In this document: positions 31,352 through 64,000 of the stretch, piece by piece
Layout: every line of letters starts with the position of its first letter
Position numbering within the stretch: the stretch's first letter is position 1
Origin: Saccharopolyspora sp. NFXS83
GTDB lineage: Bacteria > Actinomycetota > Actinomycetes > Mycobacteriales > Pseudonocardiaceae
Direction: 5' to 3'
DNA: 64,000 nucleotides
Assembly: GCF_026241095.1 (NCBI RefSeq)
Contig: NZ_JAPFGB010000008.1
Span: forward strand, 1 to 64,000
Translations under genes and position numbers: made by a program
The notes under the pieces: generated by a model
Seen by the model: only the letters and a program-made list of their open reading frames with translations
Database searches by the model: none
Told to the model about the DNA's origin: nothing

Positions 31352-31942
31352 TCAGCGCGGCGCACCGAGACGGCGCGCGGCCTCGACGACTCCCGCACGC
31401 CGCCGGGCGAGCTCGTCCGGGTCGTCCGGATCGGCGCCGGTGAGCATGCGCGCCAGCTGCGGCACCGAGTACCACCACGCGGCGAGCGCGATGAGCAGGA
31501 ACACCAGGTGCGCCGGGTCGAGTCCGCCGTCGAGCGCGCCGTCGCGCTGCGCGACGGCGAACGCCCGCACCTTGCGCCGGTAGTGCTCGGCGCGGTTCTG
31601 CTCGTCCGCCGCGGGGCCGCCGGCCAAGCCCTCCCACTGCAGCAGCCGGGCCAGTTCCGGGTGCGCGGCGTAGTAGTCGAAGGTCCGGCCGGCGAACTCA
31701 CCGATGTCGGACAGGTCGTCGTCACCGCGGGCGACCTCCGCGGCGAGCTCGTCGAGCTCGTCGGCGAGCACCGTCTCGAACAGCGCCTGCTTGTCGCCGA
31801 AGTACTTGTAGAGGCGTTCCTTGTTGATGCCCGCGCGGGCCGCGATGCGCGCCATCGTGGTGCCGTCCGGGCCGCGTTCGGCGAACTCGGCGGTCGCCGC
31901 CTCCTTGAGCCGACGCCGGGTGCCCTCGGTGTCCCAGGCCAT
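31352..31942 (-). CDS. TetR family regulator (divergent from SDR gene)
   Basis: The 196-residue protein has a TetR_N HTH at residues about 5-50 (FAERGPDGTTMARIAARAGINKERLYKYFGDK) split as an HTH with recognition part INKERLYKYF, and a helical ligand domain after it. The ATG at 31942 is the start of homology. It is divergent from an SDR gene, and a perfect inverted repeat lies in the 145-bp gap, so it probably represses the SDR gene and itself in response to the SDR substrate or a related small molecule. Confidence 0.88.
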   Translation of the reverse strand: MAWDTEGTRRRLKEAATAEFAERGPDGTTMARIAARAGINKERLYKYFGDKQALFETVLADELDELAAEVARGDDDLSDIGEFAGRTFDYYAAHPELARLLQWEGLAGGPAADEQNRAEHYRRKVRAFAVAQRDGALDGGLDPAHLVFLLIALAAWWYSVPQLARMLTGADPDDPDELARRRAGVVEAARRLGAPR

Positions 31943-58155: not shown

Positions 58156-58842
58156 TCCGCCTCCCGTCGTGCGCCACGTCACACCGTTGGCGTGGCACCC
58201 GGGAGTATTGGGGGTGGATCACCCGTGCGGGTGTTCAAGTTTTGTACAGCGGACAGCGCGTTTCGCGGCCCATCGAACGACTTCCGCAGATGCGGAGCAC
58301 AGTGGATCAGCACACCGCAAATGCGGATAACTGGAAATCGGTCCAGCGCCGCGCTTCCTAATCGACCCCCGCCCGCCATGGGGCGTCCCCGTCAGCGAGA
58401 GCGGTCAACCGGCGACCGCGGCAGGTCGGGCACGGGGAGTCGTTCACTGCCCCGCGGCCCTCCGGACGCGAGGCCACAGTGGCCGGTGGACGAGGATCCT
58501 CAGCCGCCGGCGATCGCGGGGACGTTCGGTGCTGCACACTCCGCCATCCGCACGGCAACGCTAGACGCGGTCGTCCGCCACGAGCCGATTGAGCATTCGG
58601 GGCACGTCCAGGACCGCGCCGGCGGAAGCCCGGGCCGCCCCGGACGCCGGGCCAGCTTCCCGGGCTCGCGGACGACTGCGGCGATGGCCCTCACAACACC
58701 CCTCCGATTGTGATCGGAACCACATATCCCCAGGGGTGCAAGGGGAACTCCGTTCAAAGTCTGGACAGGCCGAGTTCATGGCGGTTATTACCTTATGTGA
58801 CTACGAGCACACCGATGCCGCTGTGTGGAGGGACCCGACCAG
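58156..58842. other. Divergent regulatory region of iorBA and the GAF activator
   Basis: A 690-bp gap with no supportable gene. Frames over 58430-58760 lack a start with a ribosome site. It holds the twin palindromes at 58283-58326, listed separately, and presumably both promoters. Confidence 0.5.
58283..58326. promoter_or_regulatory. Twin palindromes CCGCA-NN-TGCGG, 31 bp apart
   Basis: CCGCAGATGCGG (58284-58295, with one more matched pair outside) and CCGCAAATGCGG (58315-58326) are centred 31 bp apart, three helical turns, 130-170 bp before iorB. They fit enhancer-like sites for the adjacent Fis-HTH activator. Confidence 0.65.
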
Positions 58843-60489
58843 ATGGACCCACGTTGGTGCGTTGGACCTGCGGGAACGCGAGTTCGCCAGGACATAGCGA
58901 TGTCCTGGCGGCGAGTGACGATGGCCGGGCTCGACCCGTCGGCGGAATTCAAGACGGTCGCCCACGAGATCGACCCACGCAGTTCACTGCTGGTCGGCGC
59001 GGCCCCGGTCCTGGAAGAGCTGGAGCAGAGCCTGCGGGGGAGCAACTACTCGACCCTGTTGGTGGATCGAGATTGCCGCGTCGTCCGCCGGTGGTTCGAT
59101 GATCCACGTGTCGAGAGCGGCCTGGACTCGCTCGCCCTCATTCCGGGAGCCAGTCTCCTCGAGGAGACGATCGGCACCAACGCACTGGGTACCGCGATGG
59201 TCATCCGGCAGGCCATCAGCATCAACGGACGCGAGCACTTCGCGAAGTCCCTGCAAGGTTTCAGCTGCTACGGCCATCCGATCAGGCATCCGCTGACCAA
59301 GCGCATCGAAGGAGTCCTGGACATCACGGCGATCACCGAGCAGGCCAGTCCCTTGCTGCCGCCGTTGATCTCCCGCGCGGCCCACGACATCGAGCAGCGC
59401 TTGCTGGACGGAAGCCGGACATCGGAGAAGGACCTGCTGCAGGCGTTCCAGGGCGCGGCGGGCTTACGGCGGCGGGCGATCGTCGCCATCGGCGAGGACA
59501 TCGTGCTGTCGAACCAGGCGGCCAATGATCTGCTCAGCCCTAGCGATGTCGCGCTGCTGCGCGCCCTCATGGAAGAGGTACAGCGCGAAGAGCAGACCTT
59601 CGAGCTCACGCTCGAAGCAGGCGCCCCCGTCAGCATCGAGATCTCCCGAGTGGGCAACGCCCGCCGCGGCGCACTGGTGCGGGTGGACCGGGTCAGCGGT
59701 GATCGGGCACGGGCCGTGCAGCGTCGGACCCGGACGCTGCTGAAAGAGATCGACGCTCCCCGCCTCATCACCGGGGTCCCGGGAACGGGCCGTTCGACCC
59801 GAGCGCGTGAGTTGGCCGCCGAGCAGCCCCCGTTGAAGGTCATGCGGCCAGGTGCGGCCTTGCTGGAAGGTGACGCCGAATGGGCCGCCGAGTTCGAGAG
59901 GGCGATGCGCCGTCCGAATGGAACGGTGTGCGTGGACGGCATCGACCTGCTTCCCGACGAATTGCTCGACCTCGTCGTCAATTGGGTCGATCATGACGGC
60001 CGACCGGATCTGATATTCACGGCGGGACCGGTTTCGGGACTCACCGGCCGAGCGGCGGCGTTGGCGGGTACGGCAATGATCCGCGAGGAACTCGTGCCGC
60101 TTTCCGCCCGGCGCAAGGACATTCCCAACCTGGCCGCGACGATGATGAGTGAGATCGCCCCCAACCGGGCATTGCACATGACCCCGAGCCTCATCGGAAC
60201 ACTCGCCGCCCAGTCGTGGCCGGGGAATCTCCGCGAGCTCCGGGCCGTGATCCATCACCTGACGCAGCAACGGTCCGTTGGCGCGCTCACGGTGGCCGAT
60301 CTTCCCGAGCAATACCGAGCGACCTCGCCGGAACACCCGTTGACGGCGTTGGATCAGGCGAAGCGGGACGTGATCGTCACGGCTCTCAAGACCACGGACG
60401 GCAACAAGGTTCGGGCGGCCGAGCAACTGGGCATGTCGCGCACGACTCTCTACGCGCGAATGAAATCGCTGCGCATCACAACGTACTGA
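58843..60489 (+). CDS. AcoR/NtrC-like activator lacking the sigma-54 loop
   Basis: The 548-residue protein has a GAF sensor (about 50-185), a middle region, an AAA+-like domain whose Walker A reads GVPGTGRST and which lacks GAFTGA, and a C-terminal Fis HTH (NKVRAAEQLGMSRTTLYARM). Actinobacteria lack sigma-54, and their bEBP-like regulators lost the contact loop. It probably binds the CCGCANNTGCGG sites and activates iorBA in response to an aromatic or aldehyde ligand. The ATG at 58843 has GGAGGG upstream. Confidence 0.87.
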   Translation: MDPRWCVGPAGTRVRQDIAMSWRRVTMAGLDPSAEFKTVAHEIDPRSSLLVGAAPVLEELEQSLRGSNYSTLLVDRDCRVVRRWFDDPRVESGLDSLALIPGASLLEETIGTNALGTAMVIRQAISINGREHFAKSLQGFSCYGHPIRHPLTKRIEGVLDITAITEQASPLLPPLISRAAHDIEQRLLDGSRTSEKDLLQAFQGAAGLRRRAIVAIGEDIVLSNQAANDLLSPSDVALLRALMEEVQREEQTFELTLEAGAPVSIEISRVGNARRGALVRVDRVSGDRARAVQRRTRTLLKEIDAPRLITGVPGTGRSTRARELAAEQPPLKVMRPGAALLEGDAEWAAEFERAMRRPNGTVCVDGIDLLPDELLDLVVNWVDHDGRPDLIFTAGPVSGLTGRAAALAGTAMIREELVPLSARRKDIPNLAATMMSEIAPNRALHMTPSLIGTLAAQSWPGNLRELRAVIHHLTQQRSVGALTVADLPEQYRATSPEHPLTALDQAKRDVIVTALKTTDGNKVRAAEQLGMSRTTLYARMKSLRITTY

Positions 60490-60750
60490 TCGAGTACTCG
60501 GGAGGTCGTGGACTGCCCGGTGGCCGAACGACGCCGTGCTGCGACTCGCCCGGCACTTCACCGGCCCGCTGGCCGGCAAGCGGGCCGTCAACATCGCTCG
60601 CGCCACGTGGCCACGAACGCTATGCCGAGCCCGCTTCCTCAGCCGGACTCGGTGCCCGTGACTGCGCCGTTCGCCCCGGAACGACGCGGGCCGCTACGAA
60701 CCGCGGATCCGCCAGCCGATCACAATCAGGTCGGCCCCGGACACGACAGA
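60490..60750. other. Intergenic region left of the tRNA remnant
   Basis: About 260 bp without a supportable gene between the activator gene and the tRNA terminator. Frames here have no ribosome sites or family resemblance. Confidence 0.4.
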
Positions 60751-60775
60751 ACCCCTCCGGAGTCACCGGAGGGGT
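60751..60775. terminator. Terminator of the tRNA-Val locus
   Basis: A perfect 10-bp stem ACCCCTCCGG/CCGGAGGGGT with a 5-base loop, 14 bases past the CCA end of the tRNA remnant, reading leftward. Confidence 0.75.
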
Positions 60776-60788
60776 CCTGAAAATCTAC

Positions 60789-60838
60789 TGGTGCGCGATA
60801 CTGGGATCGAACCAGTGACCTCTACCGTGTCAAGGTAG
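60789..60838 (-). other. 3' half of tRNA-Val(GAC): probable attachment site
   Basis: Read leftward: anticodon arm CTACC-TTGACAC-GGTAG with anticodon GAC, variable bases, T-arm ACTGG-TTCGATC-CCAGT, acceptor strand ATCGCGC, A and an encoded CCA. The acceptor 5' strand GCGCGAT, the D-arm and the rest of the 5' half are absent upstream. Integrases of actinomycete integrative elements recombine within tRNA 3' halves, leaving one intact copy and one 3' remnant. The retained terminator shows this is the original chromosomal 3' end, so the inserted DNA should lie to the right. Confidence 0.8.
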
Positions 60839-61282
60839 CCGCCGCCATCCTTCTGACCTGCAAAAATGGAGATTCCGCAGGTGGGCGGGCTGTCGTTCAG
60901 CGTGGCCGGTCGCCGTTCGATGCGGTTCAGCGCAGGTCGATCCTCCCAAAATTCTCCCAATTTACGCCTCCCACCGGCGCCCACGGGTTCCGTGTGCGTT
61001 CGAATCTCTGGGGCGGTTCGAACAGCATCCGCACGAAACCATCGTCGCGGCGAGCTGCAGGTTCTGGCGACTGTGAGGGTCGTCCGGCGCTGTCGGTAGG
61101 TTCGTATCTTGTTGGGCACCCCCAACGAGCCAGCATACGAACCTAAACCTGCTGGTCAGCGGCATACCAGTGTCCGTGAAACCCACTCACGCGAAGATCC
61201 GGCGCAAGGGAGGCGGGCTCGATGCCGGCAGCGGAGGGCAGCGTCCACTGCCGGGGGATTGCTGAGGTGGCGGTCAGGGTGG
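60839..61282. other. Non-coding left end of the putative integrated element
   Basis: About 440 bp without a supportable gene. It includes AT-richer DNA near 60945-60965 and the large inverted repeat at 61097-61145. No integrase gene is visible here. Confidence 0.4.
61097..61145. repeat. Inverted repeat TAGGTTCGTAT...ATACGAACCTA
   Basis: Perfect 11-bp arms (61097-61107 and 61135-61145) enclose an inner 6-bp stem GTTGGG-CACC-CCCAAC (61111-61126). The symmetry could be a protein-binding or recombination site of the element, or a terminator for a lost gene. Confidence 0.6.
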
Positions 61283-62197
61283 TCAGTCATCCGGTGGGTG
61301 GCGTCGGTGTTGCAGGGGTGTCCTGCCAAAGGCGCGTTTGAAGGCTGCGATGAAGGCGCTTTCGGAGGTGTAGCCGAGTTGTGAAGACAACTCGCCTACA
61401 GCTGTGTCGTAGTGGGTGAGCTCGTATGCGGCGATCCGCATGCGCCACTCGGTCAGGTAGGCGAGTGGCGGGACCCCGGCGACGGCGCGGAATCGCGAGG
61501 CGAAACCGGTGCGGGACATGGCGGCGAGGCGAGCGAGTTCGTCGAGCTGCCACGGGCGTGCCGGGTTCTCGTGCAGTGCCTGCGCGGCCGGGGCCAGGCG
61601 TGGGTCGGCGAGGACGCGCAACCGGCCTGCGGGCAGGGCGTTCGGCTGCGCCAGGTACGCACGCAGTACCTGGACGAGCAGCAGCTGCGCCAGCTGGTCA
61701 CGCGCGAAACCGTGACCGGGCCGGTCGCGGCCCATTTCCGTTTCCAGTTCCGGCAGCAGCCAGCCGAAGGCCGACGCCTGCGGGTTCGCCGCCGAAATGT
61801 GCAGCAGCGGCGGCAAAGTCCGCACCAGCAGGGCCTCGCCACCCGGTTCGACCGTCACTTCGCCGCCTACACCCGAGAATTCGTCCGCCGCCCCGATGCG
61901 ATGGTCGGGCACGGTCATCGTCGCGGCATCGACCGGCAGCACGTCGGGATCGGTGTGCAGGACAAAGGGATGGGCCCCGTTCACCACGATCGCCTCGCCA
62001 GACCGCACTTCGCCGGACCGCCCACCGGAGACGAAGGTGCATCTCCCGCGCCGCACGGCGATGATCTTGAGCCGACCGCGGGCCGGGAAGCGCAGCGCCC
62101 ACTGACCGCCCGCCGCCAGCTTCCCGGTGAGGTGGCAGCGAGCCCCGGCGAGGGCGAGCACCTGGGACAGCGGGTCGGGATGGCGGTCAGCGAGCAA
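61283..62197 (-). CDS. AraC family regulator with cupin sensor
   Basis: The 304-residue protein has an N-terminal AraC-type cupin (residues 1-180; RRGRCTFVSGG, GEAIVVNGAHPFVLH) and two C-terminal HTH motifs (ARLAAMSRTGFASRFRAVAG and SSQLGYTSESAFIAAFKRAF). It is divergent from an aldo/keto reductase gene, the usual layout for such pairs, and probably controls it in response to a reactive carbonyl or related compound. The start appears to be TTG at 62197 and is uncertain. Confidence 0.88.
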   Translation of the reverse strand: MLADRHPDPLSQVLALAGARCHLTGKLAAGGQWALRFPARGRLKIIAVRRGRCTFVSGGRSGEVRSGEAIVVNGAHPFVLHTDPDVLPVDAATMTVPDHRIGAADEFSGVGGEVTVEPGGEALLVRTLPPLLHISAANPQASAFGWLLPELETEMGRDRPGHGFARDQLAQLLLVQVLRAYLAQPNALPAGRLRVLADPRLAPAAQALHENPARPWQLDELARLAAMSRTGFASRFRAVAGVPPLAYLTEWRMRIAAYELTHYDTAVGELSSQLGYTSESAFIAAFKRAFGRTPLQHRRHPPDD

Positions 62198-62270
62198 GTC
62201 TGTACTTTCGCGGGAAAAATCTGGATGCGGTGCTATTCACCGTACACTTTCTCGGGCGCACGCTGGAGGT

Positions 62271-63335
62271 ATGAACCTCGCTTCATACCGCACCCTCGGC
62301 CGGACCGGCCTCCGGATCAGCCCGCTGGTCCTCGGCACACTGACCTTCGACGACCCCAGCTGGGGTTCCGACCAGGACACCGCGCTGCACCTGCTGCACC
62401 GCTACGTCGGCGCCGGGGGAAACACGCTCGATACGGCCAACGGCTACGCGGACGGCCGCGCCGAACAGACCATCGCGAAGTTCCTCCGGCAAAACCCGTC
62501 GCTGCGGGACGGGCTGGTGCTCGCCACGAAGTTCGCCGGCAACCTGCACCCCGGCGACCCCAACGGCGGCGGCACCGGCCGCAAGGCGATCCTGCGGCAG
62601 CTCGACGCGTCACTCACCCGGCTGGGCACCGATCACGTGGACCTGTACTGGCAGCACTACTTCGACCAGCACACCCCGATCGAGGAGACGATCGGCACCC
62701 TGCAGGACCTGATCACCGCGGGCAAAATCCGCTACTACGGCCTGTCCGACACCCCCGCGTGGGCCGTCACGCGCGCGGCGAGCCTCGCCGAATCCCGCGG
62801 CTGGGCACCAGTCGCGGCGATCCAGGTGGAGTACTCACTGCTGCAGCGGACCGTCGAGGGCGAACTGTTCGCCGCGGCACGGGCCCTGGGAATCGGAGTG
62901 ACGCCCTGGGGTCCGCTCGCCGGCGGAGTGCTGTCCGGGAAGTACACCCGCACGAACGCCGCCAAATCAGGTCGCGCGGACTGGGCCAGCACACGCGCAC
63001 GGCTCACTGAGCACACCTTCGCCCTGCTCGACGCACTGCACGAGATCGCTACCGCACAACGGGTTCCGGTTCCCGCCGTCGCTCTCGCCTGGGTCAACCA
63101 CCGCCCGGAAGTAACCGCGACGATCATCGGCTGCCGGACGCTCGACCAACTGGAGAACAACCTGGCATCCCTCACAGTGACACTGTCCGCCGAGCAGCTT
63201 GCCACGCTGGACACCTTGACCGCCCCGTCATTGCCCTTCCCCTTCGCCTTTCTCAAACGCAGCGCGACCGACCTCGCCCAGGGCGGTACGACGATCAACG
63301 GAGTCCCGTCCCGGGCCTGGCAACCGTCCCGTTGA
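62271..63335 (+). CDS. Aldo/keto reductase
   Basis: The 354-residue NADPH-dependent oxidoreductase has the AKR tetrad Asp54, Tyr59, Lys87 and His129 (TLDTANGYADG, LATKFAG, LYWQHYF) and the cofactor segment PWGPLAGGVLSGKYTR. It reduces aldehydes or ketones in the cytoplasm; substrate unknown. The ATG at 62271 has GGAGGT almost touching it, an unusually short spacing, but homology begins here. Confidence 0.9.
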   Translation: MNLASYRTLGRTGLRISPLVLGTLTFDDPSWGSDQDTALHLLHRYVGAGGNTLDTANGYADGRAEQTIAKFLRQNPSLRDGLVLATKFAGNLHPGDPNGGGTGRKAILRQLDASLTRLGTDHVDLYWQHYFDQHTPIEETIGTLQDLITAGKIRYYGLSDTPAWAVTRAASLAESRGWAPVAAIQVEYSLLQRTVEGELFAAARALGIGVTPWGPLAGGVLSGKYTRTNAAKSGRADWASTRARLTEHTFALLDALHEIATAQRVPVPAVALAWVNHRPEVTATIIGCRTLDQLENNLASLTVTLSAEQLATLDTLTAPSLPFPFAFLKRSATDLAQGGTTINGVPSRAWQPSR

Positions 63336-63479
63336 CGCCACAACCAGGCCAACCGCTGATCACGTGACCGACGAGCACGGCCCCTGAGCTTCCCCCGGTT
63401 GGCAAAGCGAACAGTCGCAGGATGACGGCTCCCGTGGCAATCGAGGATGAGCAAGTTCGCGAGGTCGTTGAGCGGCTCT

Positions 63480-63735
63480 GGCCGGGGCGCGTCTTGAGGA
63501 GTCTGGTTTCGTGGCCGACACGTGGCGAGGCCAAGCGGTCGACGCAAAAGCCGTGACTCCGTGCGTGTCGCGTCTGGGACTGGAGGACGCCACGGCGATT
63601 GGCCGACGGGCCTTGGGTATCGCGCATCTCGGCACCCGCCGCGAGCGGACGATTCTTGACTGTCCCAAGCCGAGTAGCCGAGCGCAACGCCGATCCGTTC
63701 GAGCGAGTCTCCGGCGTGTAGCGGTTGCGCATCGC
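63480..63735 (-). pseudogene. Relic of a recombinase-associated HTH gene
   Basis: On the minus strand, broken frames read LHAGDSLERIGVALGYSAW and, after a shift, GTVKNRPLAAGAEMRDTQG. This resembles the HTH pattern 'L..AG.SL..IG..LG....TV...L..AGV.MRDTQG' found in actinobacterial resolvase-like and related small HTH proteins. No intact frame covers it. It fits the decayed-element character of the region right of the tRNA remnant. Confidence 0.4.
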
Positions 63736-63944
63736 TGCGACGACTACGTTGGTAGGGGACGGGTGGCAGGGCTGGACGCCGCACTACGAAGAAGTCTCAC
63801 CAGGCGTGGCCGCCGCGTGCCAGATTTCAGCACTGACCGTGGTGACCATGGCCAGTAGAGAACGAACTGGCCATCTGACACAGCACGATGGAAGGCTTCT
63901 TCGGGCAAGATCAACTGCTCCCGGTCGCGCTCCCAAACACGATA

Positions 63945-63980
63945 AAACGCCCACCGGCGATGATCGCCTGGTGGGCGTTT
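63945..63980. terminator. Terminator hairpin near the window end
   Basis: AAACGCCCACC/GGTGGGCGTTT (11 bp) plus GGCGA/TCGCC (5 bp) with one bulged T and loop TGA. It has flanking A/T runs and could serve a gene just beyond the window. Confidence 0.7.
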
Positions 63981-64000
63981 GACTTGCGAGAACTGATGGT

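Follow-up and report, generated by a model that had tools for sequence, protein, structure and literature searches.

The window analyzed here is a 64,000-bp stretch of DNA from Saccharopolyspora sp. NFXS83 (C69:1-64000 of genome G000, an assembly of 6.9 Mb in 70 contigs that is 97.5% complete). At its right end, a partial copy of tRNA-Val(GAC) lies 3.2 kb from an intact tRNA-Val(GAC) gene on the same strand, and the two enclose a candidate genomic island with two recognized genes, one for an AraC-type regulator and one for a divergent aldo-keto reductase. The DNA between the copies spans 3,157 bp (60840-63996), so the element lies nearly all within the window, and the GC content of the island is 67.1% as against 70.0% for the window. 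The locus was compared with five congeners (G001-G005), which together with the host make up a genus set of six genomes, and with 390 genomes of the family Pseudonocardiaceae.

The tRNA-Val(GAC) copies and the DNA between them

The partial copy comprises the anticodon arm with the GAC anticodon, the variable loop, the T arm, the 3′ strand of the acceptor stem, and CCA. It is not a gene, because neither ARAGORN nor Rfam at the gathering threshold, the two methods used for tRNA detection, found a complete tRNA in the 64-kb window. The intact gene occupies C69:63997-64071 (minus strand) and is followed directly by tRNA-Cys, tRNA-Gly, and an open reading frame (ORF) that we take to be ssgB (SsgB); a second intact tRNA-Val(GAC) of the genome is found on contig C3. 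The two 51-bp copies differ at a single position (60808 versus 64016), diverge at once beyond both edges, and match with an E value of 1.2e-18, so that their likeness is not due to chance. When the flanks were joined by script, an intact tRNA-Val(GAC) followed by a hairpin was obtained. This hairpin (arms 60747-60760 and 60766-60779, −29.2 kcal/mol) lies past the remnant in the direction of the tRNA. The promoter scan found none, and the terminator scan found no more terminators than in shuffled sequences.

The preliminary description of the window, made from its letters, had recognized the remnant from the anticodon arm to CCA, and our analysis agrees. It had also placed a terminator behind it; the hairpin is indeed present, although it is absent from the output of the terminator scan, probably owing to its short T tail. 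The view that the 5′ half is replaced by unrelated DNA is borne out by the identity with the intact gene, which ends exactly at the 51-bp edges. An intact tRNA-Val(GAC) was expected to the right of the window, within about 100 kb; the gene starts in the last bases of the window itself, 3.2 kb away. The interpretation of all this as the attachment signature of a tRNA-targeting element is supported by the near-identical cores (50/51) and by a conserved arm described below. Table 1 lists the features.

Table 1. Positions of the features at the right end of the window
Feature	Position	Strand	Evidence
Hairpin 3′ of the remnant, likely the former terminator of the tRNA	60740..60788	(-)	Hairpin; sequence weakly similar to that 3′ of other tRNA-Val copies (best z 4-7)
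attR core of 51 bp: tRNA-Val(GAC) from the anticodon arm through CCA (3′ part)	60789..60839	(-)	50/51 identical to C69:63997-64047, mismatch at 60808 (T-loop)
Element-side att arm, with inverted repeat at 60856-60882	60840..60990	(-)	Core excluded, 69% over 124 bp to arms of G004/G002/G001, E 1e-6 to 2e-5; MAFFT alignment
Three-box arm TGGGAG-N8-TGGGAG-N4-TTGGGAG, probable integrase arm-type sites	60943..60973	(-)	32 exact copies including this one, in 23/390 family genomes; reversed control 0
Dispersed small ORF, fragment, and strong hairpin at ~61097-61145	61095..61260	(+)	Query 60990-61282 matched 22 other family genomes, 19 over this part; DNA fold z −4.5
AraC-family regulator with Cupin_6 domain, 304 aa	61283..62197	(-)	Cupin_6 5e-32, HTH_18 7e-17; dN/dS 0.23-0.26 versus 3/5 relatives
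Aldo-keto reductase, 354 aa	62271..63335	(+)	Aldo_ket_red 5e-70; best PDB match 8hwn DepB; dN/dS 0.16-0.23 versus 3/5 relatives
Non-coding or decayed DNA ("HTH relic", helix-turn-helix relic, of the preliminary description)	63336..63900		Tested stop-free pieces without confident domain
DNA following the intact tRNA on the element side, with a terminator hairpin and TTGGGAG-N7-GGGAG boxes (63918-63936)	63906..63996	(-)	75% over 83 bp to integrase-tRNA gap G004:706459-706540, E 2.5e-8
3′ end of intact tRNA-Val(GAC), last four bases within the window; gene extends to contig position 64071	63997..64000	(-)	ARAGORN on L005 8998-9072

No integrase was found inside the island. Among chosen stop-free pieces of it, ten gave nothing better than E 0.11 with Pfam and seven nothing better than 0.056 with PHROG, and tblastn of 60840-63996 with four congener integrases gave only E 0.79 or worse. 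The Phage_integrase profile (PF00589) has 18 matches in the genome, none of them on contig C69. This profile misses the integrase-like gene at the ssgB-linked tRNA of G004, and we therefore give more weight to tblastn. An integrase of the G004 type has one match in the genome, at 26% identity (E 7.8e-7). Neither an integrase nor a relic of one was found in the island or in C69:55000-74999; a position between the tRNA and the remnant, or just to the right of the tRNA, was accordingly rejected. The preliminary description had expected the integrase to the right, and the element in fact ends at 63996. Its assignment of the AraC/aldo-keto reductase pair to the element stands, but that of the "HTH relic" does not, this stretch having no Pfam support and, with PHROG, only matches without known function that are no better than E 0.17. 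No further gene was recognized, transfer genes, replicase, and TraB not having been searched by name.

The score of the regulator with the NCBIfam RclR model (100) is below the cut-off of 400, and the protein was therefore not filed as RclR. The dN/dS values of 0.16-0.26 versus three of the five relatives indicate working genes under purifying selection, and the regulator probably controls the divergent reductase. The reductase was searched as 62274-63335, three bases short of the ATG at 62271. The stretch 61297-63336 recurs at 86-89% identity in five of the family genomes (G135, G352, G305, G374, and G111), where its neighborhoods differ and the flanks that were fetched contain no tRNA by ARAGORN. 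A tyrosine integrase gene is nearby in two of the five: ~7 kb away in G135 (L112:357-1772) and ~0.5 kb in G352 (L124:9532-10602), which belongs to another genus. The five congeners hold only short or distant DNA matches to this stretch (e.g., 258 bp at 68% and 547 bp at 64%).

To the left of the pair, 61095-61260 is a decayed copy of a small ORF whose conserved part resembles PTSQYTNLNLLVSGLPVSVK; 19 other family genomes have matches across this part. Several family genomes carry the ORF twice per contig, one copy standing near primase-like genes as judged by eye, and no Pfam family was assigned to the piece in the window. A long hairpin (61097-61145) is located within the fragment, with a DNA fold z-score of −4.5 over 61090-61180.

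Attachment arms and insertions at tRNA-Val(GAC)

An att arm adjoins the remnant on the side of the element. Arms of like build and spacing precede tRNA-Val remnants in G001, G002, and G004, and the exact three-box pattern is present in 23 of the 390 family genomes. For the boxes, a random-placement figure of 3e-7 was calculated post hoc and is not used as a test; we rely on the family-wide count and the reversed control. Thirty of the 32 arm loci were examined, and the strict tRNA-Val core starts 140-153 bp after the arm start in 16 of them, the window included. Variant cores, followed by tRNA or by other DNA, occur at several arm loci. A phage or plasmid origin of the arm was considered and rejected, matches in phage and plasmid records being limited to the tRNA core; in viral contigs the arm pattern had no match.

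At G003:C1:3928336-3928498 (L066), the three-box arm is joined to only 23 bp of the tRNA-Val core and then to unrelated DNA, possibly as the result of an insertion at a secondary site. The stretch G004:C1:2042417-2092618 (L218 and L219) has three three-box arms, one of them followed by a tRNA-Val remnant and a gene with an integrase domain. Between the arms, there are apparent type I restriction-modification genes (by eye), and ARAGORN found no tRNA in two fetched 20-kb pieces of this stretch.

At the other end of the island, the DNA behind the intact tRNA resembles the gap G004:706459-706540, which belongs to an element at the second tRNA-Val of G004. The integrase of that element (L079:6537-7799, Phage_integrase 4e-10) comes directly after the tRNA, and its arms are like that of the window, with the middle box altered at one base. 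The G004 locus contains two elements in tandem; the first has its integrase by the tRNA, and the second retains only an integrase-domain fragment by its att site. The ends of the island resemble those of an integrase-bearing element, but no homology was found in its interior: genes taken from ten congener loci gave no match to 60490-64000 at E 1e-3.

The distribution of the core indicates that tRNA-Val(GAC) genes are hot spots in the genus. With up to two mismatches, the 51-bp core has 22 copies in the six genomes, 12 in full-length genes and 10 partial (G000, 1; G001, 2; G002, 3; G003, 0; G004, 3; and G005, 1), and shorter or altered copies are additionally present in G003 and G004. Tandem remnants occur at tRNA-Val loci of G004 and G002. 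An integrase-like gene, so called because it resembles the integrase of G004 (E 1e-18 to 1e-25), adjoins the ssgB-linked tRNA in three of the six genomes (G001, G002, and G004). Two of these genes were tested with Pfam and gave only a subthreshold Phage_int_SAM_5 match, and PrgI-family genes are found farther along in G001 and G002. The elements at the ssgB-linked tRNA in G002 and G004, as well as a G001 remnant on another contig, have arms of another type with TGGCGAT boxes.

In G005 and G003, the ssgB-linked tRNA has no adjoining partial copy; G005 does not have the left flank, and G003 has other DNA in place of the island. G003 is the closest relative, with identities of 95% on the right side of the tRNA and, as far as 60501, 94% on the left side, and contains neither the remnant nor the AraC/aldo-keto reductase pair. 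We rejected it as a clean empty site, since a different 3.5 kb occupies the place and the state before insertion is therefore not directly visible. Those 3.5 kb (L071:9525-13076) hold three genes, by eye an acyl-CoA dehydrogenase, a PIG-L/methyltransferase, and a glycosyltransferase; one of them is without a match in G000 (E 1e-10), and G004 has a relative of it in another place (81%). No match to the left flank (58700-60786) exists in G002, G004, or G005, and G001 matches it only over 139 bp at 69%.

The rearrangement in the G003 neighborhood, together with the occurrence of the AraC/aldo-keto reductase pair elsewhere in the family beside flanks without a tRNA gene, could suggest that no element was integrated and that ordinary recombination or an insertion-sequence event duplicated the 3′ part of the tRNA, the 3.2 kb being unrelated filler. 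We consider such an origin very improbable: the arm stands at the remnant with conserved spacing, positioned as at other tRNA-Val element ends, and the duplication stops at 51 bp.

Origin of the island and tandem arrays in the family

Here, we propose that 60789-64071 is an att-bounded genomic island at tRNA-Val(GAC) of the type called a cis-mobilizable element (CIME), which keeps both att ends and has no detected integrase or evident transfer genes; this reading is highly likely in our judgment. A tyrosine integrase would have recombined a circular element, which carried the tRNA 3′ half in its attP, with the tRNA gene, the crossover falling within the part from the anticodon arm to the variable loop. 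The tRNA (63997-64071) would then have been restored with the 3′ half brought by the element, leaving the displaced one as the remnant (60789-60839). The direction of the crossover and the integrase that acted are presumed in this scheme, as is the loss of integrase and transfer genes by deletion. The island may still be movable if another element provides the integrase or if one is accreted next to it.

Several observations weigh against this proposal. Among the 30 examined arm loci, 14 are missing the strict core; a variant core is present in some, and no core is visible in at least two (L198 and L205). The DNA at 63906-63996 is also like the sequence that G000 and G003 have downstream of their second tRNA-Val locus (z 10-12), and this end is for that reason not diagnostic by itself. 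In the T-loop, all six ssgB-linked intact genes of the genus set have A and the remnant has G, which one simple crossover from the gene as it now stands does not predict. The site may have been occupied before, or the second tRNA-Val may have served as donor in a conversion; either could account for the G. G003 has its own 3.5 kb between the tRNA and the common left flank, 60502-60788 matches nothing in the genus, and neither an excised circle nor a clean empty site was seen. Finally, no integrase relic ties the island to a full element, so that its origin by loss is an inference.

Tandem units at the same locus are found in G064, a member of another genus of the family, where C20:31838-71382 (L214, L215, and L220) holds at least five of them at the ssgB-linked tRNA-Val(GAC). 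The tRNA gene (C20:71308-71382) is followed in one orientation by att sites at 59767, 53197, 45493, and 35559 and by a tRNA remnant at 31838. The units are bounded by att sites of ~275 bp, four of the five having the same non-tRNA right half. With the four congener integrases, tblastn of C20:26000-85999 (E 0.01) gave no match in the middle units, 32 to 66 kb being blank. A 37-aa integrase fragment lies by the intact tRNA (C20:71069-71179, E 2e-5) and a fragmented integrase end just past the outermost remnant (C20:31298-31673). These pieces show decay at the ends of the array, and the chain probably continues past 31838. An intact integrase (C20:74555-75733, 47% over 396 aa to that of G004) is located beside tRNA-Val(CAC), 3 kb from tRNA-Val(GAC). 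The cargo includes, by eye, type I restriction-modification genes, NTPases, and transposases; the internal att site had no match in plasmids.

One G064 unit and the start of the next recur in G070:C59:20515-25712 (L216; 5,198 bp at 98.9%). The match breaks within the core, 18 bases after the start of TTGACAC, with the tRNA 3′ half on one side and the non-tRNA att half on the other. If the 9% contamination listed for G070 is not the cause, this break is a natural record of site-specific exchange that bounds the strand exchange.

The middle units of G064 may be decayed elements that accretion has stacked, or else cassettes that were moved in trans. The second possibility could be extended to the window: the island would be a non-autonomous cassette that at no time encoded an integrase and was moved by integrases of this att family in the manner of integron cassettes, similar units forming arrays at the same tRNA. 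In its favor are the missing integrase relic, the G064 units without a tblastn match between 32 and 66 kb, the intact integrase 3 kb from their tRNA, and the unit shared with G070. The integrase fragments in the second G004 island and at both ends of the G064 array point instead to decay, movement in trans was not observed, no other place was found where att sites enclose the cargo of the window, and contamination of 9% is listed for G070. Overall, we regard an origin as a cassette as unlikely. A broader form of the same idea, which we likewise hold to be improbable, is that the tRNA-Val(GAC)-Cys-Gly cluster by ssgB is a cross-genus docking site, where integrase-less islands with a common att site are exchanged and stacked in tandem by integrases acting in trans. 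The common site would consist of the three TGGGAG boxes, the inverted repeat, and the TTGACAC core; the window would represent a single unit and G064 at least five. Units without the tRNA 3′ half could dock only behind a unit that restores the tRNA.

The G064 array and the tandem remnants of G004 and G002 also bear on whether a longer array once had its outer limit at the window remnant, the AraC/aldo-keto reductase stretch being only its last unit and the others having been lost. Since a single remnant stands between the left flank and the tRNA, such a history has a small chance of being correct.

Comparison with known mobile elements

The reading of the locus as an att-bounded island fits a known kind, the genomic leftover of a tRNA-inserted mobile element. 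As in tRNA-targeting elements, an intact tRNA lies at one end and its 3′ part at the other, in the same orientation. CIMEs are defined in a review (PMC5704250), and with the definition given there the island shares the retention of attL and attR (the 51-bp core with one mismatch at both ends, and the arms) and the lack of integration genes in the Pfam, PHROG, tblastn, and PF00589 searches, at a place where related integrase-bearing elements insert. It differs in being very small (3.2 kb). The combination of integrase, replicase, and TraB that marks actinomycete integrative and conjugative elements (AICEs) was not found: there is no integrase, and no further gene was recognized in a survey that did not target replicase or TraB by name.

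For Streptomyces, AICEs in tRNA-Val with 46-nt repeats and accretion are described, as are decayed AICEs consisting of cargo and partial integrases between repeats (PMC9513070). The account in that paper resembles the island in the target, one of several, in the repeat length (46 nt versus 51 bp), in accretion, and in decay to cargo between repeats. The decayed Streptomyces elements described there keep partial integrases, whereas none was found in the island, and the host belongs to another actinomycete family, Pseudonocardiaceae. The elements at tRNA-Val(GAC) of G001, G002, and G004 share the target, and the one at the second tRNA-Val of G004, among others, has the arm architecture of the window. 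They differ in carrying integrase or integrase-like genes, and those at the ssgB-linked tRNA in having TGGCGAT-box arms. The open-licence literature searched contained no paper joining tRNA-Val, ssgB, and integrative and conjugative element, and none joining Pseudonocardia, Amycolatopsis, genomic island, and integrase with tRNA-Val, the closest one missing only tRNA-Val.

The locus adds a small, well-bounded island to a known kind and presents one tRNA locus as a site of repeated docking, both in this genus and in one or more further genera of its family. Islands without an integrase, which integrase-based searches miss, can be found with the three-box arm as a sequence handle. Integron cassettes serve here as an analogy only. 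Like them, the inner G064 units have no detected integrase and are bounded by a common site; unlike them, the units are anchored at a tRNA and kilobases long. If the cassette origin were true, integron arrays would have a tRNA-anchored counterpart here.

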